Shown: positions 4,625 to 23,459 of the stretch, one piece after another
Layout: every line of letters starts with the position of its first letter
Numbering within the stretch: the stretch's first letter is position 1
NCBI RefSeq assembly: GCF_021129235.1
Contig: NZ_JAJOMA010000006.1
Span: forward strand, 197,580 to 261,579
Direction: 5' to 3'
Length of the DNA stretch: 64,000 nucleotides
From: Kineosporia mesophila
GTDB taxonomy: Bacteria > Actinomycetota > Actinomycetes > Actinomycetales > Kineosporiaceae
The notes under the pieces: generated by a model
The model's input: the letters and a program-made list of their open reading frames with translations, nothing else
Database searches by the model: none
Told to the model about the DNA's origin: nothing
Translations under genes and position numbers: made by a program

Positions 4625-7600
4625 GTGGAACGTCCTTCTGGTCCATCCCGTCGTCGCCCAGGTGGGCCCGACGGAGACCCGAACGCTCGCGACGGCCTGG
4701 GTGGCCGCCGCCTGGACGCGCAGCAGCCGGGCCAGCCCGGCGTCGGTGGCGGGCAGCGTCCCGCCGCACAGCCCGGTCTGGGGGGACGCCGGCTGAACGC
4801 CCAGCAGGGGCAGTCTCGACCCGGACTCGGCGGGCACCGCAACAGCGGTGGTCAGGGTCCGGCTACTTCCGGTGACCAGGGTCGCCAGCAGCCGCCGCCG
4901 TCACGCGCGGAACTGCGGCGCGCGCAGCAGGCTCAGGCCCAGCAACAAGCCCCTCAGTCTCCGCAGGCTCCTCAGCAGCCGTCGAGGCCCGCGCAGCCTT
5001 CCCGCGAACGTCCCCGCCAGAACCGGCCCGACCCGGGATACGCGCAGGATTCGGGATATGCGCAGGATTCGGGATATGCCGAGAACCGCAGTGCTCCGGT
5101 CGCTCCTGGTTCTTACCAGCGTGACCCCTACCAGCGTGACGAGCCGATGCGGCCGACCGCTGATCCGCGCGAACGTCCGCGGAGTTCGCGGTCGGCCGAA
5201 CGGCCCACGGCCCGCCCGGCTACTCCCGGTTCCGACCCGTATTCCGCTCCCTCCTCCTTCGACCACCAGGATGCTCACACCGTCGCCTACGGCGCGTCGC
5301 CGTACGACGAGCTGGGTGGTCCGGCACAGTCGCCCGACGGAATGTCACGAGGCCGACGGACGCAGAACCGTCTGCGGGACAGTCGCGCCGGTCAGCTGTT
5401 GGCCAACACTGGTGCGCTGAGCCTTTTCGGCAGCCAGGAGGATGAGCAGCTGGACAGGACCGGTGCGCCCTCGCGTGGCTCCCGCACGTCCCGTTCACGT
5501 GCCGGTGGGGGTGGCGCCGGTCTGCCCCCGCAGGGTTACCACCGCTATCTCAACTACCCGCGCTGGGGTAAGCGAGGCGTCAAGCGCTGGCTGCCGTCCT
5601 GGAAGCTGGTCACCGGTACCTTCGCGTTCTTCACGCTGCTGCTGGTCGGCGTCGTGTTCTATTTCTACAACTCGGTCTCCATCCCGCCCGAAGACCCGAG
5701 CACCCTGGCACAGACCACCACGGTCTACTACGCCAACGGCAAGGACGAGATCGGCCGGCTCTCGGCGACGAACCGCCAGAGTGTGAGCATCAAAAAGGTT
5801 CCCGACTCGCTGATCCACGCCGTGCTCGCTGCGGAAGATCACTCGTTCTACGAGAACAGCGGCGTCAATTACACCTCGATCTTGCGTGCCGCCATCGCCA
5901 CCGTGACCGGCGGGAACCAGCAGGGTGGTTCCACGATCAGCCAGCAGTACGTGAAGAACGTGTACAACGAGCGCGAAGTGTCGTACAAGCGGAAGATGAA
6001 CGAGGCCGTGCTGGCGGTCAAGATCAACCGCAAACTCGACAAAGACGTCATCCTCGAGCGCTACCTCAACACCATTTACTGGGGTCGTGGCGCCTGGGGT
6101 GTGCAGGCCGCCTCGAAGACCTACTTCAACAAAGACGTCTCCAAGCTCGACGAGTCCGAGAGCGCCTTCCTCGCCGGCATCATCAACGCCCCGCGTCTCG
6201 CCGACCCGACGGACGGCGACCCGCTGCACAAGGAACGCGCCAACCGCCGCTGGGGTGTCGTGCTCGACGCGATGGTCACCCAGAACTGGCTCGACGCCAC
6301 CAAGCGCGCGGAGCTGAAGTTCCCGAAGGTCGTCAAGCAGAAGACGACCACCTCTGGCACCGGTCAGGCCGCCTACCTCATGGAAATGGTGAGGAACGAG
6401 GCCCAGGACGCCGGTATTGACGAGCAGGACCTCAGCACCGGCGGATACCAGATCACCACCACGTTCAACAAGCGCCTGGTCAATGCCGGCGACAAGGCCG
6501 TGAAGAGGTGGACCAAGGACGCGCCCAAGGGCCTACGCGTCGGCATGGCCTCGATCAACCCGAAAACCGGTGGCGTGCTTGCCATCTACGGCGGCACGGG
6601 GATCGACAAGCAGCTGAACCAGGCCACCAAGGACCGCGCCCAGGCCGCCTCCACCTTCAAGCCGTTCACTTTGATCTCGGCGCTGGAAGACGGCGTCAGC
6701 CTGGAATCGACGTACAACGGCAACAGCCCCCGCGTCATTCGGGTCGGCACCAAGGAGATCAAGAACGACAGCGGCGTCAGCTACGGCTGGATCAACCTGA
6801 TCAAGGCGACGGCCAGCTCGGTCAACACCGTCTACGTCGACCTGAACAACCAGATCGGCCCGGAGAAGACCAAGAACGCGGCGATCGCCGCCGGCATCCC
6901 GAAAGACACGCCTGACCTCGGCTCCAACCTGGTCAACGTGCTCGGTACCGCCAGCGTGCACCCCATCGACCTGGCCAACGCCTACGCCACCTTCGCGGCA
7001 CAGGGTGTGCACCGGCAGTGGCACACGATCAGCAAGATCACCAGGACCCAGTACCCCGATTACAAGTACGTAGTGCCCTCGGACGTCGTCAAGGGCGACA
7101 AGGTCTTCGAAGAGGACAAGGTCGCCGACCTGACCTACGCGATGGAGCAGGTCGTCCAGCAGGGTTCGGGCGTCTACGCCAAGGCCCTCAACCGTCCTGT
7201 AGCCGGCAAGACAGGTACATCGACCGGTAGCAAGTCGGCCTGGTTCGCCGGGTTCACCCCCCAGGTGGCTACGGTCGTCGGTCTGCACCAGGTCAAGAAA
7301 GACGGAAAGAGCCTGGGCGAGCTCCAGGGCTTCGGCGGGTTCTCCACCATCTACGGTGGTTCCATCCCGGTACGGATCTGGACCGACTACATGACCGCCG
7401 CGCTCGCCGGTAAAGAGGTCGTCGACTTCGCGAAGCCGCCGCACGGTGGTGAAATTGTCAGCTCCTCGCCGACGCCGACGGTCACCGTGCCCCCGACCCC
7501 GACCGAGACCCCGACGGAAACACCGACCGAGCAGCCGACCGAGCAGCCCACCCGGCCGTCTCAGCCGACGTTCACTCAGGGTCCGACGGCCCAGCCGACA

Positions 7601-7702
7601 GAGACAACCACCCCGCCCGTCACCTCGACCACGGACACGCTTCCGACGTTCCCGGGCCAGGGCGACGACGATGACGACGACGGGAACAACGGGTTCGGAT
7701 GA
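4625..7702 (+). CDS. ponA: class A penicillin-binding protein (transglycosylase/transpeptidase)
   Basis: Bifunctional peptidoglycan synthase of 1025 residues, longer than most because of low-complexity ends. Order: Pro/Gln/Arg-rich cytoplasmic region with a YAQDSG-type repeat, one membrane helix near residues 335-355, GT51 transglycosylase (EDHSFYE near 403, then GGSTISQQ), and transpeptidase with catalytic STFK (Ser 676), SVN (732) and KTG (862). A Thr/Pro-rich tail ends in an acidic Asp run. GTG 4625 is chosen from AGGAGG at 4607-4612, 12 bases away, which is rather far; upstream starts are weaker. Synteny matches mycobacterial ponA1. It overlaps the next gene by ATGA. Confidence 0.95.
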   Translation: MERPSGPSRRRPGGPDGDPNARDGLGGRRLDAQQPGQPGVGGGQRPAAQPGLGGRRLNAQQGQSRPGLGGHRNSGGQGPATSGDQGRQQPPPSRAELRRAQQAQAQQQAPQSPQAPQQPSRPAQPSRERPRQNRPDPGYAQDSGYAQDSGYAENRSAPVAPGSYQRDPYQRDEPMRPTADPRERPRSSRSAERPTARPATPGSDPYSAPSSFDHQDAHTVAYGASPYDELGGPAQSPDGMSRGRRTQNRLRDSRAGQLLANTGALSLFGSQEDEQLDRTGAPSRGSRTSRSRAGGGGAGLPPQGYHRYLNYPRWGKRGVKRWLPSWKLVTGTFAFFTLLLVGVVFYFYNSVSIPPEDPSTLAQTTTVYYANGKDEIGRLSATNRQSVSIKKVPDSLIHAVLAAEDHSFYENSGVNYTSILRAAIATVTGGNQQGGSTISQQYVKNVYNEREVSYKRKMNEAVLAVKINRKLDKDVILERYLNTIYWGRGAWGVQAASKTYFNKDVSKLDESESAFLAGIINAPRLADPTDGDPLHKERANRRWGVVLDAMVTQNWLDATKRAELKFPKVVKQKTTTSGTGQAAYLMEMVRNEAQDAGIDEQDLSTGGYQITTTFNKRLVNAGDKAVKRWTKDAPKGLRVGMASINPKTGGVLAIYGGTGIDKQLNQATKDRAQAASTFKPFTLISALEDGVSLESTYNGNSPRVIRVGTKEIKNDSGVSYGWINLIKATASSVNTVYVDLNNQIGPEKTKNAAIAAGIPKDTPDLGSNLVNVLGTASVHPIDLANAYATFAAQGVHRQWHTISKITRTQYPDYKYVVPSDVVKGDKVFEEDKVADLTYAMEQVVQQGSGVYAKALNRPVAGKTGTSTGSKSAWFAGFTPQVATVVGLHQVKKDGKSLGELQGFGGFSTIYGGSIPVRIWTDYMTAALAGKEVVDFAKPPHGGEIVSSSPTPTVTVPPTPTETPTETPTEQPTEQPTRPSQPTFTQGPTAQPTETTTPPVTSTTDTLPTFPGQGDDDDDDGNNGFG

Positions 7703-9426
7703 GCGGCAGACGGGTCCGGCAGCCCAGTGTGAGACCGGGCTCGCCCCGCTGGTCACAGACACCGGCAGACATCGATGACGGTGAGGGCGTCTACGCGCCC
7801 TCCCGTCTCGACCCCCTGGTGCGCTCGGCCAGTCCCGTCATCGGCGGGCCGGCCGGGCGCCGCCTCGCCTCGGCCGGTGGGTTCTGGCGCGCCGGCACCG
7901 TACTCGTGGTGCTCTCGGCCGTGGTGTTCGGGCTCGGCATCGTGCAGAAACAGCACTGCCGCGCCAACGGCTGGAGCTCACCCGACCAGTTCTGGCACGC
8001 CTGCTACAGCGACATCCCGGTCGTCTACGCCAGCTCCGGCCTCGGCGGCGCCGACCGTCTCGGCCTGAGCGCATCCCTCGGACCCGCCGGTGGTCTCGGC
8101 CAGTCACCGCTCGCCGGGCTGATGATGTGGGTCACCTCCGGCCTCATCGACGGCGACGCCGCGGGCGCCAACCGCAGCTTCTTCGACCTCACCGCGCTCC
8201 TGCTCGCCGCCTTCCTGGCGGTCGCGGTGGCAGCCACCGCCTTCACCCTGGGCCGCCGCGGCTGGGACGCATCCCACCTAGCCCTCAGCCCGGTCATCGT
8301 CACCGCCGGCCTGATCTCTTACCAGCTCCTGGCCGTCGCCCTGGTCGCGATCGCCCTCTTCGCCCTGTCCCGCAGCCGGGCCCTGGCCGGAGGAATCCTG
8401 CTCGGCCTGGGCATCGCCGCGGCCCCCCAGGTCGCGGTCATCGGCCTGGTCGTCGCCGTACTCGCACTCTGGCGATCGCACTCCTACGACCCCGAGTCCG
8501 AACTCGACTCCGACGAGGCGGTCATCGAGGCCGGCCGCGACCCCCGCGCACTGGCGGGCGTGTCCTTCGCCGGCAGCGCCGTGATCACCTGGCTCGTGGT
8601 GCGGGTACTGCTGCTGCCCGGTGCCACCGGCGAACTCGGAACGGCCTGGGACTCCTGGCGCCACGGTTCGCCCGGGTACGGCTCGCTCTGGCTGGTGCCG
8701 CAACTGCTGGGCGCGTCCGAGCCGGACCCGGCCTCGTCGTGGGGCGGCCGTGCCGCGCAGCTGTTCTTCGGCTGGCTCTTCAGCGCCGATGCGCTCAGTG
8801 GCACCGCGACCTCGGCACTCGTCGCGATCGCGATGATCGCCGCGGCCGCGCTGCTGCTGCGCCTCACCGTGGCCCGGGTGGCACCGCTGGCCCCGATCCG
8901 AACGGCGCGAACCGAGGACGACGACCAGACCGCCACCGGCCCGCGCTCGTCCACCCCCTCGTCCACCATGGCCGACTGGGTGGTCCGGCGCGTCGCGCCG
9001 ACCTCGCTCGCGGCCCTCGCGTTCTTGCTGGTGATCTCGAAATCCCTGCCGGCCCAGGCATCCCTGCTTCTGTTGCCGTTGATCGCCCTGACCGGCCTGC
9101 GCTGGCGCGACCACCTGATCTGGGCCGGCACCGAGGCCGTCTACTTCGTCGGGATCTGGCTCTACATCGCCGCCGAGACCACGTCCAACCGCGGGTTGCC
9201 GGCGCAGTTCTACCTGATCATGCTGCTGGCCCGGCTGGCCGGCATCACCTGGGTGGGCATCCAGGGCATCCTCGTCTACCGCGGATCGCAGGCCGTGGAC
9301 GAGACATTCCGCGACCAGGCGGTGCCCACCGGCAGCATCGGTATCGAGGAGATTTCATCTCCAGGCCTTGACGAAGGTACGCTTCGAGGCGATCGAGAAG
9401 CTGGGACTCCCCACTCCCTGGGGTGA
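7699..9426 (+). CDS. GT87-like integral membrane protein
   Basis: A 575-residue multipass protein with roughly ten or more hydrophobic segments after an 80-residue cytoplasmic head. The first membrane segment (VLVVLSAVVFGLGIV) is followed by an extracytoplasmic Cys-containing loop (CRANGWSS...WHACYSD). This is the position and look of the Rv0051-type glycosyltransferase 87/DUF2029 proteins that follow ponA1. Such proteins usually use polyprenyl-phosphate sugars outside the membrane. The start overlaps the PBP stop (ATGA), so translation is probably coupled. The exact reaction is unknown. Confidence 0.8.
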   Translation: MSGRRVRQPSVRPGSPRWSQTPADIDDGEGVYAPSRLDPLVRSASPVIGGPAGRRLASAGGFWRAGTVLVVLSAVVFGLGIVQKQHCRANGWSSPDQFWHACYSDIPVVYASSGLGGADRLGLSASLGPAGGLGQSPLAGLMMWVTSGLIDGDAAGANRSFFDLTALLLAAFLAVAVAATAFTLGRRGWDASHLALSPVIVTAGLISYQLLAVALVAIALFALSRSRALAGGILLGLGIAAAPQVAVIGLVVAVLALWRSHSYDPESELDSDEAVIEAGRDPRALAGVSFAGSAVITWLVVRVLLLPGATGELGTAWDSWRHGSPGYGSLWLVPQLLGASEPDPASSWGGRAAQLFFGWLFSADALSGTATSALVAIAMIAAAALLLRLTVARVAPLAPIRTARTEDDDQTATGPRSSTPSSTMADWVVRRVAPTSLAALAFLLVISKSLPAQASLLLLPLIALTGLRWRDHLIWAGTEAVYFVGIWLYIAAETTSNRGLPAQFYLIMLLARLAGITWVGIQGILVYRGSQAVDETFRDQAVPTGSIGIEEISSPGLDEGTLRGDREAGTPHSLG

Positions 9427-9458
9427 AGCAGTTTCCGACGACGCGCAAGACCCCTCCT

Positions 9459-9477
9459 GTCACGGAGAGACCGTGAC
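9459..9477 (+). promoter_or_regulatory. hairpin in the rpsF leader, possible S6:S18 site
   Basis: GTCACGG (9459-9465) pairs perfectly with CCGTGAC (9471-9477) around the loop AGAGA, 30 bases before the rpsF start. Leaders of rpsF operons in many bacteria carry an RNA motif bound by the S6:S18 complex. The position fits and a CCG is present, but I cannot confirm the full consensus. Confidence 0.35.
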
Positions 9478-9506
9478 CGCTTAGACCGAAGGAGGTGGGT
9501 GTTCGC

Positions 9507-13312: not shown

Positions 13313-15901
13313 ATGTCACTCGCCGATCTGTCCGTGTCGCCGTCCGATTCGGGCGGTGGGTCGGACCTGGGTCGCACGCCACCGCAAGACGTGGCGGCCG
13401 AGCAGAGCGTGCTCGGCGGCATGATGCTGTCGAAAGACGCGATCGCCGACGTCGTCGAGGAGCTGCAGGGCACCGACTTCTACCGCCCGGCCAACGAGCT
13501 GGTGTACGACGCGATCCTCGACCTCTACGGCCGCGGTGAGCCCGCCGACGCCGTCACGGTCGCGGCCGAGCTGACCAAGCGCGGCGAGCTGGCCAAGATC
13601 GGCGGCCCGGCCTACATCCACACCCTGATCTCGTCGGTGCCCACGGCCGCGAACGCCGGGTACTACGCCCGCATCGTGCGTGAGCGGGCCGTGCTGCGCC
13701 GCCTGGTCGACGCCGGCACCCGCATCGTCCAGCTCGGCTACAACGGTGCCGACGGCCGCGGAGGCGGTGACGTCGAGGAGATCGTGAACTCGGCGCAGGC
13801 CGAGATCTACAAGGTCAGCGAGCAGCGCACCAGCGAGGACTACCACGCCCTCTCCGAGGTGATCGAGGGCGCGATCGACGAGATCGAGGCCTCCAGCCAC
13901 CGCGGCGACGGCCTGACCGGCGTCCCCACCGGCTTCGTCGACCTCGATGCTCTCACCAACGGCCTGCACCCGGGCCAGATGATCATCATCGCCGCCCGCC
14001 CGGCCATGGGTAAGGCCCTGGCCCTCGACACCCCTCTGCCCACGCCCGACGGCTGGACCACGATGGGCTCGGTCCGGGTCGGCGACGTGCTGATGGGTGC
14101 CGACGGCCGCCCCACCCGGGTCGTCAACGCCACCGACATCATGGTCGGCCGGCCCTGTTACGAGGTCGAGTTCTCCGACGGCACCGTGATCGTGGCCGAC
14201 GCTGAGCACCAGTGGCTCACCGACACCCGGGCCTCCCGCCGCGCCGCCCAGCCACAGGCCGAGGTCCGCACCACCGAGCAGATCGCGGCCACTCTGCGCT
14301 GCGCCACGGCAGATGCTCGCCTGAACCACAGCGTCCGCAATGCACAGGCGCTGGCCCTGCCCGAAAAAGACCTCCTGGTGCCGCCGTACACGCTGGGCGC
14401 CTGGCTCGGCGACGGTACGAGTGCCACGTCCCAGATCACCTCGGCCGACCCGGGCATCGTGATCCGGCTGGAAGACGACGGTCTGGAGGTCGTCCCCAGC
14501 AACAGCGCTGAGCTGCGTTACTCGCTGAAGCTCCCGATCCCGGCGGTTCCCGACCGTGAGTGCGTGGTCTGCGGCGTCACGTTCACGCCCAAGGCAGCGG
14601 TCGTGCGCACCTGCGGCCAGTCGTGCGGCGGTCGGGCGAAAGCAGTCACCGCCCCGGTGCCGCCGGCTGCGTGCCTGGACTGCGGTCGCGAGATCACCGG
14701 CTTCGGGCGCTGCCAGTCCTGCCACGACATCTACGGCACGGTCACGGGCCGTCTGCGCACCATCGGCGTGCTGGGGAACAAGCACATTCCGCGCAGCTAC
14801 CTGCGGGCGTCCGAGGCCCAGCGGCGTGATCTGCTGGCCGGGCTGCTCGACACCGACGGCACCGTGCACTCCACGGGCGCCATCCAGTTCGCGGTGACCA
14901 ACGAACGCCTCGCGCTCGATGTGCAGGAGCTCGTGCTCAGCCTCGGCTACCGCTGCACGATCATGCGGAAGGCGGTGAAGGGCCGCAGCGAGGCGAGTTC
15001 CGTCGCCTACACGCTGAACTTCACCACCGACGACCGGGTGTTCAACCTCGAGCGCAAGCACCTGCTGCACAAAGACCGGCTGAACCGCCGCTTCCAGCGC
15101 CGTGACTCGCGATTCATCACGGCGGTGCGGCCGATCCGGAGCGTTCCGGTGCGCTGCGTCGAGGTGGACAACGACAGCCACCTGTACCTGGCCGGGCGCA
15201 CCATGATCCCGACCCACAACTCCACCTTCGGCCTGGACATCCTCCGCTCGGCCGCCATCCATCACCGCATGACCTCGGTCATGTTCAGCCTCGAAATGGG
15301 GCGCAACGAGATCACCATGCGCCTGCTCTCCGCCGAGGCGCGCATCCCGCTGCAGAACATGCGTAAGGGCACCATGCGGGAGGAAGACTGGACCCGCCTG
15401 GCCAAGACGATGGGCGATATCAGCGACGCGCCCCTGTTCATCGACGACAGCCCGAACATGTCGCTGATGGAGATCCGGGCCAAGTGCCGCCGGCTGAAGC
15501 AGCGGCACGACCTCAAGCTCGTCGTGATCGACTATCTCCAGCTGATGACGAGCGGTAAGCGCGTCGAGAGCCGCCAGCAGGAAGTCTCCGAGTTCTCCCG
15601 GGCCATCAAGCTCCTCGCCAAGGAGCTGCAGCTGCCGGTGATCGCGCTGAGCCAGCTGAACCGTGGTCCCGAACAGCGCACCGACAAGAAGCCGGCCATG
15701 TCCGACCTTCGCGAATCCGGTTCTATCGAACAGGACGCGGATATGGTCATCCTTCTCCATCGAGAAGACGCGTACGAGAAGGAATCTCCGCGCGCCGGCG
15801 AGGCCGACTTCATCGTGGCCAAGCACCGTAACGGCCCCACCGACACGATCACGGTGGCTTTCCAGGGTCACTACTCGCGTTTTGTGGACATGGCTCAGTG
15901 A
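13313..15901 (+). CDS. dnaB: replicative DNA helicase DnaB with intein
   Basis: Precursor of 862 residues that should splice to a 460-residue helicase. The N-terminal domain (PQDVAAEQSVLGGMMLSKDAI) and linker occupy residues 1-200 or so. The RecA-like domain is interrupted after PAMGK of Walker A, at residue 234, and resumes with STFGLDIL; later come FSLEMG, the Walker B VVIDYLQLM and the SQLNRGPEQR loop. ATG 13313 is preceded by GGAAGAGG. DnaB is a hexamer that unwinds DNA at the replication fork. Because the ATP-binding loop is split, the helicase cannot work until the intein has excised. Confidence 0.97.
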   Translation: MSLADLSVSPSDSGGGSDLGRTPPQDVAAEQSVLGGMMLSKDAIADVVEELQGTDFYRPANELVYDAILDLYGRGEPADAVTVAAELTKRGELAKIGGPAYIHTLISSVPTAANAGYYARIVRERAVLRRLVDAGTRIVQLGYNGADGRGGGDVEEIVNSAQAEIYKVSEQRTSEDYHALSEVIEGAIDEIEASSHRGDGLTGVPTGFVDLDALTNGLHPGQMIIIAARPAMGKALALDTPLPTPDGWTTMGSVRVGDVLMGADGRPTRVVNATDIMVGRPCYEVEFSDGTVIVADAEHQWLTDTRASRRAAQPQAEVRTTEQIAATLRCATADARLNHSVRNAQALALPEKDLLVPPYTLGAWLGDGTSATSQITSADPGIVIRLEDDGLEVVPSNSAELRYSLKLPIPAVPDRECVVCGVTFTPKAAVVRTCGQSCGGRAKAVTAPVPPAACLDCGREITGFGRCQSCHDIYGTVTGRLRTIGVLGNKHIPRSYLRASEAQRRDLLAGLLDTDGTVHSTGAIQFAVTNERLALDVQELVLSLGYRCTIMRKAVKGRSEASSVAYTLNFTTDDRVFNLERKHLLHKDRLNRRFQRRDSRFITAVRPIRSVPVRCVEVDNDSHLYLAGRTMIPTHNSTFGLDILRSAAIHHRMTSVMFSLEMGRNEITMRLLSAEARIPLQNMRKGTMREEDWTRLAKTMGDISDAPLFIDDSPNMSLMEIRAKCRRLKQRHDLKLVVIDYLQLMTSGKRVESRQQEVSEFSRAIKLLAKELQLPVIALSQLNRGPEQRTDKKPAMSDLRESGSIEQDADMVILLHREDAYEKESPRAGEADFIVAKHRNGPTDTITVAFQGHYSRFVDMAQ
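14015..15220 (+). other. DnaB intein, class 3, with LAGLIDADG endonuclease
   Basis: A 402-residue protein intron inside dnaB. It begins with Ala, not Cys or Ser, and ends THN before extein Ser. It has the class 3 WCT set: Trp 67 in block B (EHQW), Cys 381 in block F (VRCVEVDND) and Thr 400 in block G. In class 3 inteins the block F Cys makes the first acyl shift. The homing endonuclease has both LAGLIDADG motifs: LGAWLGDGT from residue 127 and LAGLLDTDG at 274-282, with Asp in each. Between them lie two four-Cys clusters (183-236). It appears intact, with no stops or shifts. Confidence 0.92.
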
Positions 15902-15967
15902 TGCCCTATTGCTATGGCCCTAATAAAACAAAACCACACAAACAGTTGGCTGCGGTAAGATTTGCTC

Positions 15968-17024
15968 GTGCCTACGGTCTCGGCTGATGCAGACGAACTC
16001 GCTGTTCTTTTGAACTGGAAGAAGCGTGATGATTCGTTCATTCTGATCGACTGGAGGCTGAAGCTGTTGTGTATGCCTCATTGGGTGTCGATGCTGAGAT
16101 GATCGCGGTATCGGTGGAGCGGCCGTCGCTGACGGTTTCTGGGTAGCTGAGGGATTGGGAGAATCTCGGCTACATTCGGTGGTGACGGGTCACGCCAAGA
16201 ATGAGAATGCGGCGAAGCTGACGGAGGACCAGAAGTCCGAAGTGACTCAGGTACTGGCGTCACCGCCGGCCGAGAGCGGGGTGCGGGCGGCTTTCTGGGA
16301 TGTCCCAGCATTGCAGAATGTTGTGAAGATTCTTTTTGATGTCGAGTACGAGTCCCGGTCGTCCTATCGGTTGCTCATGAAGTTCCTCGGGATGAGTTTC
16401 AAGCTGCCGGACCTGTTCGACAAGCGTCGTGATGAGGACCCCATCGTGACGCGCATGGTTGAGGTGAAGTCGCAGGTCGCGGGGCCGATAGCGTACGAAT
16501 ACGAGGGTTACACCCTGGACGAGGTCTGGGTGCAGCACGAGGCCGAGACCCGGCGGATGCGGCTTCCCCGGGGTGAGCGGACGAAGCCGTACGTCTATCG
16601 GGAACGGTCCGCGAGATCGTTCTTTAGCGCATTGAGCCTAACCACGAAGAAGATGGAGATCTATCTTATCGACGGTATGCAAAACGCTGAGCAGATCATT
16701 CATATGATGAATCGCCTAGTTGCCTGAGGCATCGGCCGAGAAGATCGCTGTCGTGCTCGACAACGCGAGTTTTCATCGTGCGAAGAAATTCACCAAACTG
16801 TGCGTCCGGGAGATATTCGAACGAGTCACTCTGATCTCTTCCCGCCGTACGCTCCCAATCACAACCCGACCGAGCGCGGCTGAAACGCCGCGAAGGGGCA
16901 AATCGCGAACCTGCAGCAAAGCGCCCCGGAAGAGGGCTTCGTTGAGTTCATGAACTTTGTTCCCGGGCCTGAATTCGATTATGACTTCGAGAATATATCG
17001 ATCGTGAAGAGTCCCGCCGACTGA
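15968..17024 (+). pseudogene. IS630-family transposase, decayed
   Basis: Pieces of one transposase read in several frames. They are an N-terminal part from GTG 15968, then EAVVYASLGVDAEMIAV, then a stretch starting near 16170 (LTEDQKSEVTQVLASPPAESG, later YTLDEVWVQHEAETRR) and the DDE part KIAVVLDNASFHRAKKF near 16738. After a frame shift comes YAPNHNPTERG, then a TGA where Trp is expected, and NAAKGQIANLQQ to a TGA at 17022. At least two shifts and two nonsense codons make it inactive. No terminal repeats were found. It marks the left side of a low-GC island right after dnaB. Confidence 0.85.
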
Positions 17025-17142
17025 ATAATGTCAGCCATACGACGGCGAGTCCACGGTCGATCTTGCGATATTGGCCAGAATCAGCAGCGGCTGATCGGGC
17101 CTAAGGGACCGCCGGAGGCGAGGCATGCACAACCTCGGTTGA

Positions 17143-17309
17143 TCATGAATTTTGCCTAAGCACGTGTTTTAGGTTGCCCTGGACGCCTGCGAGCAGGCTG
17201 GCTTCACGTCCGTAGAGATACTTGGCGTGAGCGGTCTGGGTGTGGCATTACGTTGACGGAGATCAGGACACCGGTTAGGTCGGGGATCTGCCCCAATAGC
17301 CACTCCCCG
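17143..17309 (-). pseudogene. ISAs1-family transposase fragment
   Basis: On the minus strand one frame reads GEWLLGQIPDLTGVLISVNV, and after a one-step frame change HTQTAHAKYLYGREASLLAG, then VQGNLKHVLRQNS and a stop at 17143. The order 'LxGVxxxxDALHTQxxHAxYL...GAxYLxxVKGN' is the centre of ISAs1/H-repeat transposases. Only this part remains. The rest of 17025-17600 shows no further gene. Confidence 0.6.
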
Positions 17310-17501
17310 TAACCACTCCAAGGAACGGGTATAGACATATAAAATCAGACCCGACCACTCAGTGGGAAACAATGATTGTAATACAAGCCAGGTCAAGCAT
17401 GCAGCGCCAGCACACCGTCGCGAGCCAACCAGGGCTCGACTACTTAACCTTAACCCTAGCCGATATCAGGCAAGGACCCACAAGCAAACGCGCCTGTGAC
17501 T

Positions 17502-17547
17502 TTGAACACGAACATAAGGCATAAATAATGTAGCTACCGTCTGGTAG
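17502..17547 (+). promoter_or_regulatory. candidate promoter and small hairpin of the export cassette
   Basis: TTGAAC at 17502-17507 and TAATGT at 17526-17531, 18 bases apart, resemble sigma-70 type -35 and -10 elements in an AT-rich stretch. Just downstream CTACC and GGTAG pair around GTCT (17534-17547), which could be a small operator or RNA hairpin. This is about 55 bases before the first gene of the cassette. Confidence 0.35.
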
Positions 17548-17600
17548 GTTCCAAAACGCTCGATTGTGCGGGAAACCGCCTGATGAATTGGTGGCACTTA

Positions 17601-18017
17601 ATGAAGAGAAGTCATGTCGTTCGCGGGTCAGCAGCCTTTGCTGTCGCCGCGGCCATTGTCACCATTTCGGCCTCTGCCTCCCAGGCAGTGACTGAAACGG
17701 CCATCACTGTGGGTTCACAGACTCAGGGGACCTGGACCTGGAAGAGTACCTCCAGCTTCGGCAATGCTTCCCTCAAAGTCTGGGACACCAAATGCGATGC
17801 CCACTCCGCGCGTGGCCGCTTCCAGTTCCAGGACCAGAACGGCGATCTTCAGAGTTTCCAGATCCGGGAAAATGAGAAGGGCTGCGGTGAATCGCAGGAG
17901 TGGACGGGCCTCAGCGGCTCCAGCGGTTCGGCCATCACGAAGCTTCGGGTGAGGACTTACACCGCGGGTACCGACTATACTGAGCCGTCGGACTACGTCT
18001 CGAACCCCTACTGGTAA
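17601..18017 (+). CDS. small secreted protein, candidate exported effector of the cassette
   Basis: A 138-residue protein from ATG 17601; an ATG six codons earlier is possible but delays the signal peptide. The N-terminus is a clear Sec signal: MKRSHVVRG, a hydrophobic core, then SASQA with likely cleavage after Ala 29. The mature part is about 109 residues, rich in Thr, Ser, Gly and Trp, starts near GTWTWKS (43-49), has just two cysteines (65 and 95, a possible disulfide) and ends in NPYW. A GTW near the mature start and an aromatic C-terminus recall lactococcin 972-type bacteriocins, but the likeness is weak. Base composition is poorer in GC than the flanks. Confidence 0.75.
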   Translation: MKRSHVVRGSAAFAVAAAIVTISASASQAVTETAITVGSQTQGTWTWKSTSSFGNASLKVWDTKCDAHSARGRFQFQDQNGDLQSFQIRENEKGCGESQEWTGLSGSSGSAITKLRVRTYTAGTDYTEPSDYVSNPYW

Positions 18018-18068
18018 AGACTGATGAGTCGGCGGTGGGCAGGTAAAACGGGATCGGGAGTTCTATCG

Positions 18069-18908
18069 ATGCGCCGTATTCTTTCAATGGGTAGCACTGT
18101 GGCTGTGCTGACACTGGCCGTCTCAGGGTGCAGCCAGGCTCCAGAGGCTGATATGTCCACGGGCGCAGTGGCTCAGGTGGATGCGGTGAGCGGAACGATT
18201 GCACTTCCGTTGGATGAATATCTGCCTACCGCGACGCAGGCCACCGTCTTTACACACGCGGTAGACATTAAGGCTCGCGAGTGCGCCAAAGCTCAGGGCA
18301 TCGATTTCCGGGTGATCATGCCGGATCCACAACCAGTGAACAATAACTACGGTGTCTGGCGAAAATCCCAGGCCGAGAAGTATGGCTATGGACAGCCGAT
18401 TCCGCAAACAGTCCCTGTTGATTCCCAGCACAATGCAAACCTCTCCGAAGCGGAGGGCAAAGTAGTTTACGACTGCATGGTCAAACCCGAGGTTAGCCAG
18501 GTGAAATATCCGGGCAAGCTAATCAAGGGCGATCTACCGTTTCTGCGCACTCTGACGAGAGTGCGTTCGATAGATACCAAACAAGGCCAAGAAATTCTCA
18601 AGGAATGGCATAACTGCCTCAAGGAGAACGATATCGCGGCGCCCTCGATGCCCGAGGAAATGACGGTGTACGACTGGACGCCACCTAATGTTGGTTCCAT
18701 GACTCCGGAGGAACGCTTTCAGGCCGCGCTGATTGATGTCGCCTGCAAGGACAAAGTAGACTTGGTGCAGCGACTCGCCGATATCGAAGCTGGCCAGCAG
18801 AAGGCGGTCATTGATGGGCATACCGCAGAACTTGCTGCCTTTCGGGATACCTGGCAGCGGAATCTGACCGCAGCTCAGAAAGTGGTTGACGAGTTCTCCG
18901 GTGCCTGA
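18069..18908 (+). CDS. lipoprotein of the export cassette
   Basis: A 279-residue lipoprotein: MRRILSMGS, hydrophobic stretch, lipobox VSGC with the acylated Cys near residue 22. The body has spaced single cysteines in similar settings (ARECAKAQGIDF, VVYDCMVKPE, EWHNCLKENDI, DVACKDKVD) and a helical, Gln/Ala-rich C-terminal end. Lipoproteins of this Cys-spaced kind are common in actinobacteria beside ABC exporters; their role is not known. ATG 18069 follows GGGAG and lies 51 bases after the secreted-protein gene. The last bases overlap the next gene. Confidence 0.8.
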   Translation: MRRILSMGSTVAVLTLAVSGCSQAPEADMSTGAVAQVDAVSGTIALPLDEYLPTATQATVFTHAVDIKARECAKAQGIDFRVIMPDPQPVNNNYGVWRKSQAEKYGYGQPIPQTVPVDSQHNANLSEAEGKVVYDCMVKPEVSQVKYPGKLIKGDLPFLRTLTRVRSIDTKQGQEILKEWHNCLKENDIAAPSMPEEMTVYDWTPPNVGSMTPEERFQAALIDVACKDKVDLVQRLADIEAGQQKAVIDGHTAELAAFRDTWQRNLTAAQKVVDEFSGA

Positions 18909-20175
18909 TGCGTCGCAACAGCGGTCGGTCGCGCTGCCCTGGATCCAACGACCGAGACTCCTGGCTAGTCTGGCTCTGGGTTGGATCGCTTCTTTGGTCC
19001 TCGCCTTTCTGATCGGTAGCCAGATCCATGCGAGTGAACCGGCGACCAATCAGAGCGTCTCCGTGGCGCCGACTTATGCGGTGGCTACGGAACGTTCCGT
19101 GCAACAAGTACAGACACGTGAAGGCGTCGTGGCGGGCCGTAGTGTGGTTTCAGTCCCGCCGCCAAGCAATGCCGACTCGGACGCTTCGCGCAATGTGGTC
19201 TCGGATCAGGCTGTCAAGGTAGGGGACACCGTACGGTCAGGTGACATCCTAGCTGTGGTATCCGATCGACCCGTCTTTCTATTGAAATTGGAAGTCCCCC
19301 TGTATCGGTCGCTGCATTCCGGTGATCAGGGTGAGGATGTCGCCCAACTGCAGCGAGAGCTGTCTCGGCTCGGTCTTTTCAATGGCGGGGTAACCAAAAT
19401 TTTTGACGTCTCGACCATGTCCGCAGTTTCGTCGCTTTATATTCGCGCGGGATTGTCCGCACAGACCGAACCTGCGGCAACGCAGAAGGCTGATCAAAAC
19501 GGCAAGGACGGTGGTAGCACCAAGGAAGCGCCTAAGCAGTTAGTGTGGCTGCCATTGGGAGAGATTTACTCGATCGAGCAGAACCAGGCCCAGGTGGACA
19601 CCGCTGTACGGCGGGGACGGGTCCTCGAGGGCTCTGCGCCGGTGGTCAAGCTCCGGATCGGCGGACTGCGAGTCAGTGTGCGGATCGGGGTGGACGAGAA
19701 GAGTCATTATAAGGCTGGAACCGCCGTTGTACTTTCGGCGCCGGAACTGTCCGACCAGACCTGGAGGGGAGAAGTCACCTCAGTAGGTCCTTTCGATCAG
19801 GGATCCGGAGGTGACGGGTCAGAACTCGGCCAGGTAGAGGAGGATTCTGATAGCGATTCCTCAAACTCCGGTGTCCAGGCCGAACTTCCCGGCTATGACG
19901 TCACGATCCGGCTCTCGAGTCGTCCACAGGTTCTGACGAACGGCAGGAAGGTACAGGTCCGACCTAAGGTTGCAACCAAGACCAAAAACCTGGCGGTCCC
20001 GCTGATCGCGATCCGGCAAGACTCCCGTGGCACCTACGTCCGACTGGCACCGGCTGGCGATGGCCAAGCTGCCACTGAGCTTCCGGTGACGGTGACAAGT
20101 GACGCTGATGGTTGGGCAGCGCTCGAACCGACCAAGGATCTTCAACCGGGAGACAGCGTCCAGGTGACCCCGTGA
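18901..20175 (+). CDS. membrane-fusion protein with peptidoglycan-binding domain
   Basis: A 424-residue HlyD/MacA-like adaptor. One membrane helix near residues 20-40 (LLASLALGWIASLVLAFLI) anchors it. A biotinyl-lipoyl-like half (VKVGDTVRSGDILAVVSDRPVF) is split by a PG_binding_1 domain (LHSGDQGEDVAQLQRELSRLGL) and followed by the beta-barrel region. An acidic Ser/Asp stretch (EEDSDSDSSNSG) lies near residue 325. The likely start is GTG 18901, overlapping the lipoprotein stop by 8 bases; TTG 18886 is possible. It should link the ABC permease to the cell wall in a monoderm exporter. Confidence 0.85.
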   Translation: MPDASQQRSVALPWIQRPRLLASLALGWIASLVLAFLIGSQIHASEPATNQSVSVAPTYAVATERSVQQVQTREGVVAGRSVVSVPPPSNADSDASRNVVSDQAVKVGDTVRSGDILAVVSDRPVFLLKLEVPLYRSLHSGDQGEDVAQLQRELSRLGLFNGGVTKIFDVSTMSAVSSLYIRAGLSAQTEPAATQKADQNGKDGGSTKEAPKQLVWLPLGEIYSIEQNQAQVDTAVRRGRVLEGSAPVVKLRIGGLRVSVRIGVDEKSHYKAGTAVVLSAPELSDQTWRGEVTSVGPFDQGSGGDGSELGQVEEDSDSDSSNSGVQAELPGYDVTIRLSSRPQVLTNGRKVQVRPKVATKTKNLAVPLIAIRQDSRGTYVRLAPAGDGQAATELPVTVTSDADGWAALEPTKDLQPGDSVQVTP

Positions 20176-20840
20176 GCCGTCCGCTGCTGGAACTGCGCGG
20201 AGTGAGCCGGGTGTATGGGCCACCCGAAGTCTTGGCACTCCAAGAGATCAACCTCGTGGTGCCGCGGTCAGAGTTTTTGGCCGTCACGGGGGCCTCAGGC
20301 TCGGGAAAAAGCACCATGCTGAACGTGCTCGGATTACTGGACCCACCCAGCAGCGGCGAGTACCAGGTCAATGGCCAAGACATCACAATGTTGCGGGCTC
20401 GTGAAGTGGATCAGCTGCGATCACGTCTGTTCGGGTTCGTATTCCAGGCTTCGCACATGCTGCCTGAACGCACGGTGGCTGCCAATGTGGCGTTGCCGCT
20501 ACGGATCGCGGGCGTCCCAAGAAGTACTCGCCCTGGACGCGTCTGGAAGTCGTTGGAACGAGTTGGGCTAGTGCAGCGGGCGCAGGCTCGAGCGTCGTCT
20601 TTATCCGGTGGCGAGCGGCAGCGCGCCGCTATAGCCAGGGCCCTGGTGAACGAGCCGGAGGTGCTGCTCGCCGACGAGCCCACCGGCAATCTGGATGCCG
20701 AGAATGCCGAGCGGGTTATGACAATCTTCGATGAGCTTCGGCAGGCCGGCCTGACCTTGGTGATGATTACGCACAACCAGGAACTGGCTGAGAGAGCCGA
20801 CCGTCAAGTGGTCCTTTCCGATGGGCGTTTGCTCGCATGA
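20172..20840 (+). CDS. ABC transporter ATP-binding protein, MacB/LolD type
   Basis: A 222-residue ATPase with Walker A GASGSGKST, Q-loop (FVFQAS), signature LSGGERQRAAIARAL, Walker B VLLADEPTGNLD and the switch His (MITHN). This set is typical of the MacB/LolD/FtsE group, which drive mechanotransmission and do not import. GTG 20172 overlaps the stop of the adaptor gene (GTGA), and its own stop overlaps the permease start (ATGA), so the three are translated together. Confidence 0.93.
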   Translation: MSRPLLELRGVSRVYGPPEVLALQEINLVVPRSEFLAVTGASGSGKSTMLNVLGLLDPPSSGEYQVNGQDITMLRAREVDQLRSRLFGFVFQASHMLPERTVAANVALPLRIAGVPRSTRPGRVWKSLERVGLVQRAQARASSLSGGERQRAAIARALVNEPEVLLADEPTGNLDAENAERVMTIFDELRQAGLTLVMITHNQELAERADRQVVLSDGRLLA

Positions 20841-22030
20841 TCCGTTCAGCCTGGACCCAGTTCAGCGATCTTTTGGGTGATGTCCTTGACGGACTGCTCA
20901 CCCGTCCTGGCAGGTTCTTTCTATTGATTGCTATGTTCGCCATTGGTTCGGGCGGATTCGTTGCGGCTGCGGGGATCAGCAGAAGCGCCGCAGACCAGAT
21001 CACCAGCCGACTCACTCCCTCGGACTTGGACCAGGTGATGATTCGGGAGGCTGACCCGGGAGATCTGCCCGAGCAGGCAGAAAGCCGCGTGCAAGCAGTG
21101 AACGTTGTACGTGCAGCTGGAACGGCCTGGCCGGTGGAACCGGGAACAGTTTCGCTAAGTGGGCTGCCCGAGCGTGCATCGACAGAAACTACGACGATGG
21201 CTGCGCCAGTTTATGGGGCTGGCCCTTCCTGGCTCAAGGTTCAGGAAGCCGTGGTTATACCGGCCGGGGCTGTCGATCATTTGGCTGGAGATTCCGCGGA
21301 CCATGTGGCAGTCGTCGGGGCACAATTGAGTCGCCGGATGAATCTGGCCTCCGCAGGTCCAGGCGCCAAGATTTGGGTAAATGGCCGATCATTTGACCTC
21401 GTCGGAGTGCTGGAATCCAGCGGCCGCGACGCCACACTCGGGCAAGCCCTCATCATCTCTCCTGGCGCGATCCGAGAGCTAGTGCCGACGGCGACGGGGG
21501 TGGTCACCGTGCGCACGATGGTCGGGGCAGCTTCCGCAGTTTCGAAGATGATCGCGACGACGGTCCGTCCGGATGCGCCGGGCCTGCTGCAGGTGGACCC
21601 AGTTGTCGACCTTGCCAACCTACGTCGTGGGGTAGCCACCGATCTGGACCGCAGCGTTGCGACTCTGTCTTTCCTTGTACTTGCCTTCGCAGCTCTGACT
21701 TGTGGCAACGCCATGGTTGTAACGGTCATAGCTAGAACCGGCGAGATCGGGCTGAGGCGCGCGATGGGTGCATCGCGAACCGGTGTGGCGGCATTGTTCC
21801 TAACCGAGGGGGTGGTGACTGGCGTGGCAGGTGGACTGCTGGGCAGCGTGCTGGGGCTAGCCGCAGTTCTCGGCGTGGCCGAGGCTCGCGGGTGGGCACC
21901 AGTGGCCAGTCTCCTCACCGTTCCAATGGGCCCGTTACTGGGGCTTCTTGTCGGTGTAGTCGCGGCTCTCTATCCCGCGATGCGGGCCGCCGCGATTCCC
22001 CCGGCACAAGCTGTCCGGCACACCGCCTAA
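20837..22030 (+). CDS. ABC permease, FtsX/MacB type
   Basis: A 397-residue permease with the MacB layout: one N-terminal helix (about residues 26-50), a large extracytoplasmic domain of some 210 residues, then three C-terminal helices (about 280-300, 325-350, 365-385) with the FtsX motif GEIGLRRAMGASRTGVAALFL. Permeases of this kind move substrates from the outer face of the membrane or signal through it. With the upstream ATPase and adaptor it completes a three-part exporter; the secreted protein or a related peptide is the likely substrate (inference). Confidence 0.9.
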   Translation: MIRSAWTQFSDLLGDVLDGLLTRPGRFFLLIAMFAIGSGGFVAAAGISRSAADQITSRLTPSDLDQVMIREADPGDLPEQAESRVQAVNVVRAAGTAWPVEPGTVSLSGLPERASTETTTMAAPVYGAGPSWLKVQEAVVIPAGAVDHLAGDSADHVAVVGAQLSRRMNLASAGPGAKIWVNGRSFDLVGVLESSGRDATLGQALIISPGAIRELVPTATGVVTVRTMVGAASAVSKMIATTVRPDAPGLLQVDPVVDLANLRRGVATDLDRSVATLSFLVLAFAALTCGNAMVVTVIARTGEIGLRRAMGASRTGVAALFLTEGVVTGVAGGLLGSVLGLAAVLGVAEARGWAPVASLLTVPMGPLLGLLVGVVAALYPAMRAAAIPPAQAVRHTA

Positions 22031-22104
22031 GCCCCTAAGTAGCTGGCGACCCAGGATCGGAGCGTGTGGGGCATGTGAGGTTCCCCGAAAGGGTGGACAG
22101 ATGG

Positions 22105-22247
22105 TTAAGTAGCGTTAGCTGTGCCTGTCAGGGGCTGTTCGTAGCGGATGGGGCTGAGCCCTCCTGCTCCTGAGTGAAGACGTTCATGTTTGAACCGTTG
22201 GATTCATGTGTCAACTCCAGCAACGAGTTCCGTCTTGGCGGTTACGA
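22105..22247 (-). pseudogene. IS3-family transposase, C-terminal remnant
   Basis: The minus strand reads VTAKTELVAGVDT, a TGA where Trp is expected, then IQRFKHERLHSGAGGLSP, IRYEQ and a stop at 22105. KTEL...W..RFNHERLHS..GY.SP..YE is the end of OrfB in IS3-type elements. The distance between KTEL and RLHS is shortened, so there is also an internal deletion. It marks the right side of the island. Confidence 0.75.
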
Positions 22248-22535
22248 GGCTAGGCCGCGTATTTCCGTAACGGCAACTCTGCGCGGAAGTTCTTCACGAT
22301 CGACAGTTGCGTCCATGAGCGTCTTGCGATCTTCGACAATCGCAAGTGCGATATACCGGGCCGTCGGTGGGGCGAGCGCTATGACGGCGCCTGGTTGCCA
22401 CACCCGGGGTGTTCCGCCAATCTGGAAACGTCCGCAGGGTGGCAGCGCATGCCAGTCATTGAACGATTGCGGTAGGCCGTGTGCGCGAGAAGCGCGTGCA
22501 CGGCTTGACGGGCGGGGGCTGGAAACGGAGCCCAT
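22242..22535 (-). CDS. doubtful open frame, function unknown
   Basis: A 97-residue frame on the minus strand with a protein-like C-terminal two thirds (QPGAVIALAPPTARYIALAI, VAVTEIRGL) and a poor N-terminus. It ends inside the IS3 remnant. It may be a remnant of an older gene or chance. No ribosome site was found at its start. The rest of 22031-22595 shows no other gene apart from the IS3 piece. Confidence 0.25.
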   Translation of the reverse strand: MGSVSSPRPSSRARASRAHGLPQSFNDWHALPPCGRFQIGGTPRVWQPGAVIALAPPTARYIALAIVEDRKTLMDATVDREELPRRVAVTEIRGLAS

Positions 22536-22595
22536 GGGCCACCGCGCCAGTCCCCGACCCTACTGAGGACGTGGTGGGGAAGGAGGCGGTCGGCG

Positions 22596-23459
22596 ATGAC
22601 TTCAACCCCTCCCACCTGGGGTAAGGCTGAAAGACTCGATGCCGGGCAGATGGCCGATGAGCTCCACACCCGGACCGGGACGCGGCTCGTGGTGGAGGGG
22701 CCATGCGCCGGTGGGGAAGTGGGCGCGGCCTTCGTGCGCTGGGAAGACGGCCACCGGTCAGTGCTCAAGTGGCGTCCGCACAGCAGGAAGGCCGATCTGC
22801 TGCGGGGTCCGCTCGCGGTCTGCGAAGCGGCCCGGACAGCGGGTATCCCGGCTCCGGGAACAGAACTCGTGGAACAGGTCGGGCACGCCGTGGTCATGGT
22901 GCAGGAGCTCAGGCCCGGCACCCAGCTCGACCATCTCGACGAGAGCCTTCTTCGCCAGGTACTGGACATCAATGACCGGCAGAAAGACCTGCTCGTCGAC
23001 CGTCCAGACATCCCCCAGATCCAGCTGTTCCTGCAGGATGACGGGCCCGGATACTGCCTGCACGAACCACTCAGGCAATACAGCAAACGCACTGCGGCCC
23101 TGGAGCGCCGCATCCGCGAGGTCGCCCCGGACGCCGCCAGGCACCACGACGCCGTTCACCTGGACTTTCACCCGGGCAATCTGCTGGCCGAAGACGGCTC
23201 GATCACCGGTCTCGTCGACTGGGACGGCGCCGGCCGTGGAGACCACCGCCTCGACCTGGTCACTCTCTACTTCGGCGCGCACCACCAGAACCAGCCCCTG
23301 GAAACCTCGATGCTCGACGGCGTCCTCAAGCGCATCCCCGACGACGAACTCAAACCCCTCTGGGCCCACATGAGCCTGCGCCTGACTGACTGGGCCATCC
23401 GGCACCACACCGACGATGACGTGAATCATTGGCTCGACCTCGCCGAGCAATGCCTTTGA
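22596..23459 (+). CDS. aminoglycoside phosphotransferase-family kinase
   Basis: A 287-residue small-molecule kinase of the APH fold. The catalytic loop HLDFHPGNLL (H-x-D-x4-N) and the metal-binding LVDWDGAGRGD (DFG equivalent) are intact. The nucleotide-binding lysine is probably in SVLKWRP. AAGGAGG precedes ATG 22596. Family members phosphorylate aminoglycosides, other antibiotics or metabolites, so resistance cannot be assumed. It sits just right of the island, with GC back near normal, and ends before a strong two-way terminator. Confidence 0.88.
   Translation: MTSTPPTWGKAERLDAGQMADELHTRTGTRLVVEGPCAGGEVGAAFVRWEDGHRSVLKWRPHSRKADLLRGPLAVCEAARTAGIPAPGTELVEQVGHAVVMVQELRPGTQLDHLDESLLRQVLDINDRQKDLLVDRPDIPQIQLFLQDDGPGYCLHEPLRQYSKRTAALERRIREVAPDAARHHDAVHLDFHPGNLLAEDGSITGLVDWDGAGRGDHRLDLVTLYFGAHHQNQPLETSMLDGVLKRIPDDELKPLWAHMSLRLTDWAIRHHTDDDVNHWLDLAEQCL

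Follow-up and report, generated by a model that had tools for sequence, protein, structure and literature searches.

In a 64,000-nucleotide stretch of Kineosporia mesophila DNA (contig NZ_JAJOMA010000006.1; hereafter the window), five adjacent open reading frames (ORFs) on the plus strand, at 17601–22030, code for a small secreted protein, a lipoprotein, a membrane-fusion protein (adaptor) and the ATPase and permease of an ATP-binding cassette (ABC) machine, the last three being referred to below as the pump (Table 1). The original prediction, made from the letters alone, saw in them an export cassette for the small protein. As an observation it is confirmed, and its reading is partly supported. 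All five ORFs are present as first placed; the first product has two cysteines and, judged by eye, a signal peptide; the Pfam matches bear out the adaptor with its peptidoglycan-binding domain, the ATPase and the FtsX-type permease; and the mobile remnants said to lie nearby are found as an IS630-like transposase in two pieces. The last four genes do have overlapping ends (23 bp for lipoprotein/adaptor, 4 bp for adaptor/ATPase and 4 bp for ATPase/permease). The gap between the small-protein and lipoprotein genes is 6 bp, or 51 with the later of two possible lipoprotein starts, and no terminator-like site was found between them (five such sites occur in the region vs. 4.7 in shuffled sequence). 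An Rfam scan of the window gave no match, and ARAGORN found no tRNA in it.

Table 1. Features of the five-gene block and of the island that carries it (window coordinates).
Feature	Coordinates	Strand	Remarks
Acquired island	15904..22562	none	6.66 kb, absent from 5/5 congeners
Broken IS630-like transposase, two pieces	16155..16953	+	HTH_33, DDE_3; inside island
Small secreted protein, 138 aa	17601..18017	+	Cys 65 and 95; signal peptide about residues 1-29 (by eye)
Lipoprotein	18024..18908	+	likelier start 18069; lipobox VSGC by eye
Membrane-fusion (adaptor) protein	18886..20175	+	N-terminal hydrophobic segment 25-43; peptidoglycan-binding domain
PG_binding_1 domain of adaptor	19327..19431	+	PF01471, residues 148-182, 30.1 bits (cut-off 23)
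ABC ATPase, FtsE/LolD/MacB kind	20172..20840	+	ABC_tran 107.7 bits
FtsX/MacB-type permease	20837..22030	+	PF02687 42.4 bits (cut-off 25.5)

The five-gene block was acquired horizontally by this soil actinobacterium as an island, a feature that the original prediction had missed. In the congener G005, whose DNA is about 95% identical, alignment to the window ends at 15903 and restarts 44 bp on at 22563, and the remaining four congeners likewise lack the stretch; it is because all five lack it that the stretch is taken as an acquired island. The guanine-plus-cytosine (GC) content of the island is 0.588 overall, with local values of 0.56–0.64 inside about 16.0–22.5 kb vs. 0.66–0.73 on either side. 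At third codon positions, GC is 0.60–0.72 in the five genes, 0.90 in dnaB, 0.94 in ileS and 0.82 in an adjoining APH-type gene. The end of dnaB is kept in all six genomes of the genus. No 10-bp repeat, direct or inverted, is common to both island ends in the parts compared. The two transposase pieces match HTH_33 (E 7.3e-5) and DDE_3 (E 0.029 and 0.007), all below the Pfam cut-offs. More distant adaptor-type matches occur elsewhere in four of the five congeners (best E 3.5e-32). The APH-type phosphotransferase gene, at 22650–23459, adjoins the island and lies outside the insertion, since all five congeners have similar DNA after dnaB.

Across the actinobacteria examined, the lipoprotein is the component of the arrangement that stays constant, with an exchangeable secreted partner and an optional pump. 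Besides the lipobox Cys 36, its conserved cysteines are 87, 151, 198 and 241, and in an alignment of 24 relatives the lipobox Cys and the four further Cys are invariant. No family over the cut-off was found for it in Pfam and NCBIfam, and no PDB chain matches the lipoprotein family at a useful E-value. An initial scan of genome contigs with the lipoprotein gave no match; later searches found relatives in 51 of 394 class genomes (single-protein search) and at 58 places in 31 of 148 class genomes (profile search), own genome included in both. The 58 places correspond to 61 rows, merged where matches were split. The single-protein search also finds relatives in 15 plasmid records, from Streptomyces (9), Kitasatospora (2), Leifsonia, Rathayibacter, Arthrobacter and Nonomuraea (1 each; the Nonomuraea record in the plasmid collection is 11.85 Mb long).

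The same 148 genomes were searched with the lipoprotein profile, with the Inhibitor_I36 family (PF03995; I36 below) and with the family of the window's small protein. PF03995 is present at 89 places in 44 genomes, own included, and lies within 1.5 kb of the lipoprotein at 23 of the 58 lipoprotein places, against 0.08 expected under random placement (24 of the 89 I36 places have the lipoprotein near). All 23 neighbors share the strand of the lipoprotein; 21 lie upstream of it and 2 downstream. The predicted tie between the lipoprotein and small secreted proteins is therefore borne out, and a family present in about a fifth of the sampled class genomes (31/148) is now linked to such proteins, many of them of the I36 type. 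Among 22 hand-picked small partners, 17 match PF03995 (E up to 0.01) and three match Crystall; a profile of hand-picked partners finds beta-gamma-crystallins in the PDB. Most of the loci fetched from the single-protein search have a small gene with a hydrophobic N-terminus just upstream, usually with no pump in view.

At 35 lipoprotein places there is no Pfam neighbor; 19 of these were fetched for inspection (eleven more lie in loci fetched otherwise), and a small partner is seen at seven of the 19. In L166 and L167, the partners are I36 proteins over the Pfam cut-off that the PF03995 genome search had missed, so that 23/58 is a lower bound. In L172 and L173, both in genome G230, ricin-B-lectin-like secreted proteins, over the cut-off, stand before the lipoprotein. 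The partners in L178 (downstream of the lipoprotein) and L179 are I36-like only by a profile made for this analysis, and L180 has a weak small partner with no Pfam match. Two other layouts were noted: L047 has two small-protein/lipoprotein pairs in tandem (5605-9481), and L061 a run of three small genes (7719-9058) that each have a hydrophobic N-terminus, two of them with nearly the same start. The window's own genome also holds one I36 protein (G000:C6:172653-172853, a strong match with E 3.7e-17), on a different contig from the genome's only lipoprotein of the family.

The part of the prediction that holds for the full five-part arrangement is its recurrence in other actinobacteria; the identity of the first gene does not carry over, the slot being filled there mostly by I36-like proteins. 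Cryobacterium sp. PH31-O1 and six Leifsonia records combine an I36 protein, the lipoprotein, the adaptor and the ABC; five of the Leifsonia records score alike in every gene, and the sixth differs. The Leifsonia shinshuensis plasmid NZ_CP043643.1 carries the full arrangement with the small gene annotated as "peptidase inhibitor family I36 protein". In each of these cases ATPase and permease form a single fused gene, as they do in the G077 loci L045 and L131. By Pfam or by the I36 profile made here, the arrangement is also seen in L061, L128, L129, L132, L134, L137, L138, L139 and L141; the partners in L134 and L138 have no Pfam match, and in L061, L128 and L141 the pump genes run divergently from the pair. 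A different small secreted gene occupies the slot in L130 and one stands further upstream in L143 (neither with a Pfam match), and L133 and L145 have a pump with no lipoprotein match. Genome G066 splits the arrangement over separate contigs, with an I36-like gene and lipoprotein in L054 and lipoprotein and pump in L055. These loci were picked by similarity to lipoprotein-linked adaptors, and shares among them are not population frequencies. In some pump loci, a second, shorter Cys-spaced lipoprotein-like ORF stands directly before the adaptor gene (L128 6064-7275, with no Pfam family match; L141 5521-6024; L145 2792-3313).

The window's own small protein has no family over the cut-off in Pfam and NCBIfam, no match in the plasmid collection and no good match in the PDB. 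Two assignments were tried and rejected: as Inhibitor_I36 (no PF03995 match; a profile comparison aligns the signal peptides alone) and as lactococcin 972 (nothing of that family in Pfam or NCBIfam up to E 1). Among 148 relatives, a search with the small protein gives, besides the window, only one weak place, with stops inside. The protein belongs with secreted proteins of other actinobacteria that have the motifs V-DT-CDGH and GCG. A profile of six mature relatives, built with the window protein excluded, gives it 8e-11 in a set of 967 proteins, where the next unrelated one has 0.15; the six had originally been found by similarity to it. The family has 15 places in 7 of the 148 genomes, own included. 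Called genes around the six relatives include no lipoprotein, adaptor or permease match, and ATPase matches are near two of them (L105, 8.4e-17; L106, 3.3e-59, about 3.7 kb off). Under the original prediction, homologs of the 138-residue protein should mostly occur with the other four genes, and 14 of the 15 places have no lipoprotein within 1.5 kb. By the prediction's own refuting condition, a fixed five-gene unit built on that protein is refuted.

In the ATPase, the Walker A, LSGGE signature, Walker B and H-loop motifs are present. The permease has, by hydropathy, about four transmembrane segments and one large extracellular loop (peaks at 27-45, 280-298, 317-335/330-348 and 359-377/367-385, from a rough method with overlapping peaks). 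With its FtsX domain over the cut-off and its extracellular domain, it has the features of a type VII (MacB/FtsX) ABC permease, and its PDB relatives are MacB 5lil, 5xu1 and LolF. An assignment to MacB proper (NF007826) was rejected, ATPase and permease scoring 212.4 and 31.1 bits vs. an equivalog cut-off of 966. The adaptor stays below the curated cut-offs of HlyD_3 (16.3 of 22.2) and RND_mfp (23.8 of 94.9), and its family profile has weak C-terminal similarity to MexC-like and CusB chains.

We read the block as an acquired module that handles a small secreted protein through Sec export, capture by the lipoprotein and ABC action outside the membrane, a reading to which we give a probability of about 0.45. 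The 138-residue protein, with its own signal peptide, would leave the cell by Sec. On the outer face of the membrane the lipoprotein would bind it, as the genetic linkage suggests. The adaptor, presumably anchored in the membrane and on the peptidoglycan, would be joined with the ATPase and permease, and the pump, if it works like MacB-family machines, would then draw on cytosolic ATP to shift the protein held by the lipoprotein, or to detach it, outside the membrane. The outcome could be release through the wall, surface placement, or keeping the protein off the producer's own membrane. This sequence of steps is suggested by the signal peptide together with the description of MacB-family machines in a review (PMC8277102, in part), where substrates are acted on outside the cell's own membrane and not carried across it. 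Since the small protein has its own signal peptide, the ABC is not needed for membrane crossing, and export of the small protein by the ABC, as first stated, is unlikely. The module reading offers a testable role for a MacB-type machine with a peptidoglycan-binding adaptor; if confirmed, it would mean that actinobacteria have a step after Sec devoted to small proteins.

Several observations weigh against this reading. The lipoprotein is absent within 1.5 kb at 65 of the 89 I36 places, and among the 15 places of the window's small-protein family the window itself is the only one that has it nearby. No small secreted protein is seen at 12 of the 19 inspected lipoprotein places; of these, L176 and L181 have a pump, and L182-L184 are fragments, at a contig edge, or places where the lipoprotein ORF was not re-found. 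Loci with the lipoprotein and the pump but no small gene seen are also common, namely L048, L055, L135, L136, L140, L142, L144, L146 and L147, as well as L176 and L181. Identity between the window lipoprotein and its nearest relatives is only about 25-32%. The structure models, an all-beta AlphaFold single-sequence model of the small protein and a helical one of the lipoprotein, are poor (predicted local distance difference test scores of 44.9 and 40.7) and were both too poor for a fold search. Finally, an adaptor is present within 2 kb at 19 or more of the 58 lipoprotein places (coordinates compared by hand), and adaptor and Pfam I36 neighbor together at 3 of 58 among the matches listed (G077 twice, and G179). 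Because so few lipoprotein places have both, pump and partner are loosely coupled, and the complete arrangement arises where two commoner pairings coincide. The lipoprotein and ABC might be a stand-alone antibiotic or envelope-stress pump with the small genes as incidental neighbors: at least 19 lipoprotein places have the adaptor, 16 of them, among the matches listed, with no Pfam I36, and 171 of 394 genomes have a match to the adaptor profile at E 1e-6. We nevertheless regard a stand-alone pump as improbable, given that the lipoprotein–I36 linkage goes far beyond chance and nearly always has one order, and that such pairs exist also where no pump is seen.

Distances among I36-like partners and among their lipoproteins are correlated (Mantel r 0.83, with 0 of 2000 permutations as high; Spearman 0.47). 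The set consists of 37 hand-chosen I36-like pairs, two near-copies included, selected by position and by the neighbor profile made for this analysis and not each checked against the Pfam cut-off. It leaves out the window pair, non-I36 partners, the identical Leifsonia copies (L116, L123-L125, L127) and further pairs, among them L037, L040, L046, L047, L070, L134 and L138. The correlation speaks for the module, being as expected for a unit inherited together; it also follows from vertical inheritance. In a lipoprotein tree of 60 rows (L138, L178 and L179 left out), the window groups with Leifsonia, Cryobacterium, G066 and a Rathayibacter plasmid (7 rows, 97/82), and the starred branches force at least 7 changes in pump presence, out of 12 in all. 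The tree has several long end branches, and two of the rows nearest to the window have no small gene. An exchange of the partner in the window's line would thus be the simplest reading of these sequences and no proof.

Of 13 hand-chosen comparisons between the mature I36-like partner and the lipoprotein, ten show higher conservation of the partner, one equal conservation and two lower. The motif [ND][ND]xx[ST]S, which we take to be the calcium site of beta-gamma-crystallins, occurs in 19 of the 37 I36-like partners, at least twice in 13 of them, and 6% of shuffles have one. Slow partner evolution and this motif speak for a system of surface-coat, adhesion or inhibitor delivery, in which beta-rich wall or surface binders, or protease inhibitors, would be held by the lipoprotein and placed outside by the pump. 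The partner folds are of a binding type (beta-gamma-crystallin and ricin-B-lectin-like), and the cargoes named for MacB-family machines in part of PMC8277102 are an enterotoxin, a lipopeptide and dispersins of about 10 kDa. The window protein, on the contrary, has neither the motif nor a known fold, and we consider surface delivery rather unlikely.

The same slow evolution is mildly against the locus being one for a bacteriocin or killer protein, in which the small protein would kill competitors while lipoprotein and ABC protect the producer; a fast-diversifying partner would suit a toxin better. The logic of the parts is that of lactococcin 972, a Sec-secreted bacteriocin whose gene lcn972 is followed by orf2-orf3, genes of a putative ABC immunity transporter (PMC4055356, in part), and a later paper calls the function of the genes after lactococcin 972 unproven (PMC11796350, in part). 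YknWXYZ, with similar parts, protects Bacillus against the SDP toxin, described there as being expelled from the cytosol (PMC4887032, in part). The contexts are mobile as well: an island here, and plasmids for the relatives in Leifsonia, Rathayibacter, Streptomyces and Kitasatospora. A beta-gamma-crystallin killer-toxin-like protein exists in Streptomyces, for which the literature search found no paper. On the other hand, the small protein gives no Lactococcin 972 match and the ATPase scores 187.7 bits with TIGR03608, below the cut-off of 254.85; many small-protein/lipoprotein pairs have no pump seen nearby; and L036, L044, L050, L057 and L058, all of one genus, have alike neighbors, which suggests vertical retention. 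We hold a bacteriocin locus to be possible but, like surface delivery, rather unlikely.

Within the module reading, the variety of secreted partners in a single slot suggests a general role of lipoprotein and pump in handling such proteins. The stronger form, an undescribed actinobacterial system in which one lipoprotein family is the common receptor for small beta-rich secreted proteins that can replace one another (crystallin, lectin and other types) and is pluggable into a peptidoglycan-anchored MacB-type engine, is possible, although we hold it doubtful. If true, it would mean a post-Sec step for wall crossing or surface placing in single-membrane bacteria.

Next to the island, dnaB contains an intein at window 14013-15223 (intein_Cterm and LAGLIDADG_3, both over the cut-off), absent from the dnaB of the congeners G005, G003 and G002. 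In G002 and G004, there is another insertion at about window 15720/15725.

The block is built from parts of known kinds. In the literature searched, which left most subscription papers outside, the lipoprotein family, its link to exchangeable small partners and the optional pump appear to be undescribed; within the same bounds, no matching description was found for I36, crystallin or killer-toxin-like secreted proteins. The closest machines are MacAB and other type VII systems, with Gram-positive forms in YknWXYZ and Spr0694-0695. They share with the window an adaptor, a separate ATPase and an FtsX-type permease (here related to 5xu1 and MacB 5lil), as well as, in the excerpted descriptions, a substrate outside the membrane. 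Unlike these systems, the window has a peptidoglycan-binding adaptor, an extra lipoprotein family and a small secreted gene in the operon, and its ATPase and permease are far below the MacB equivalog cut-off. As in lactococcin 972 and streptococcin B (in the parts of the sources available), a Sec-secreted small protein is followed by putative immunity and transport genes, and L_ocin_972_ABC is among the relatives of the window ATPase. The differences from lactococcin 972 are a small protein outside that family, an ATPase below the cut-off and the addition of lipoprotein and adaptor. In lantibiotic immunity by LanI and LanFEG, a lipoprotein and an ABC act likewise jointly on a secreted product (PMC4828448, in part). 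Judged by library matches, the window differs from LanI/LanFEG in its FtsX-type permease, in a lipoprotein with no library family and in having no modification genes in the block. The dispersin system is Gram-negative, with an outer-membrane channel, and its likeness to the block is one of description. What it shares, together with its MacB-like transporter, is a small secreted protein as MacB-family cargo (PMC8277102, in part). The Inhibitor_I36/beta-gamma-crystallin proteins, finally, are not detectably related to the window's small protein beyond aligned signal peptides, and yet they fill the same slot in most of the relatives with a small partner.

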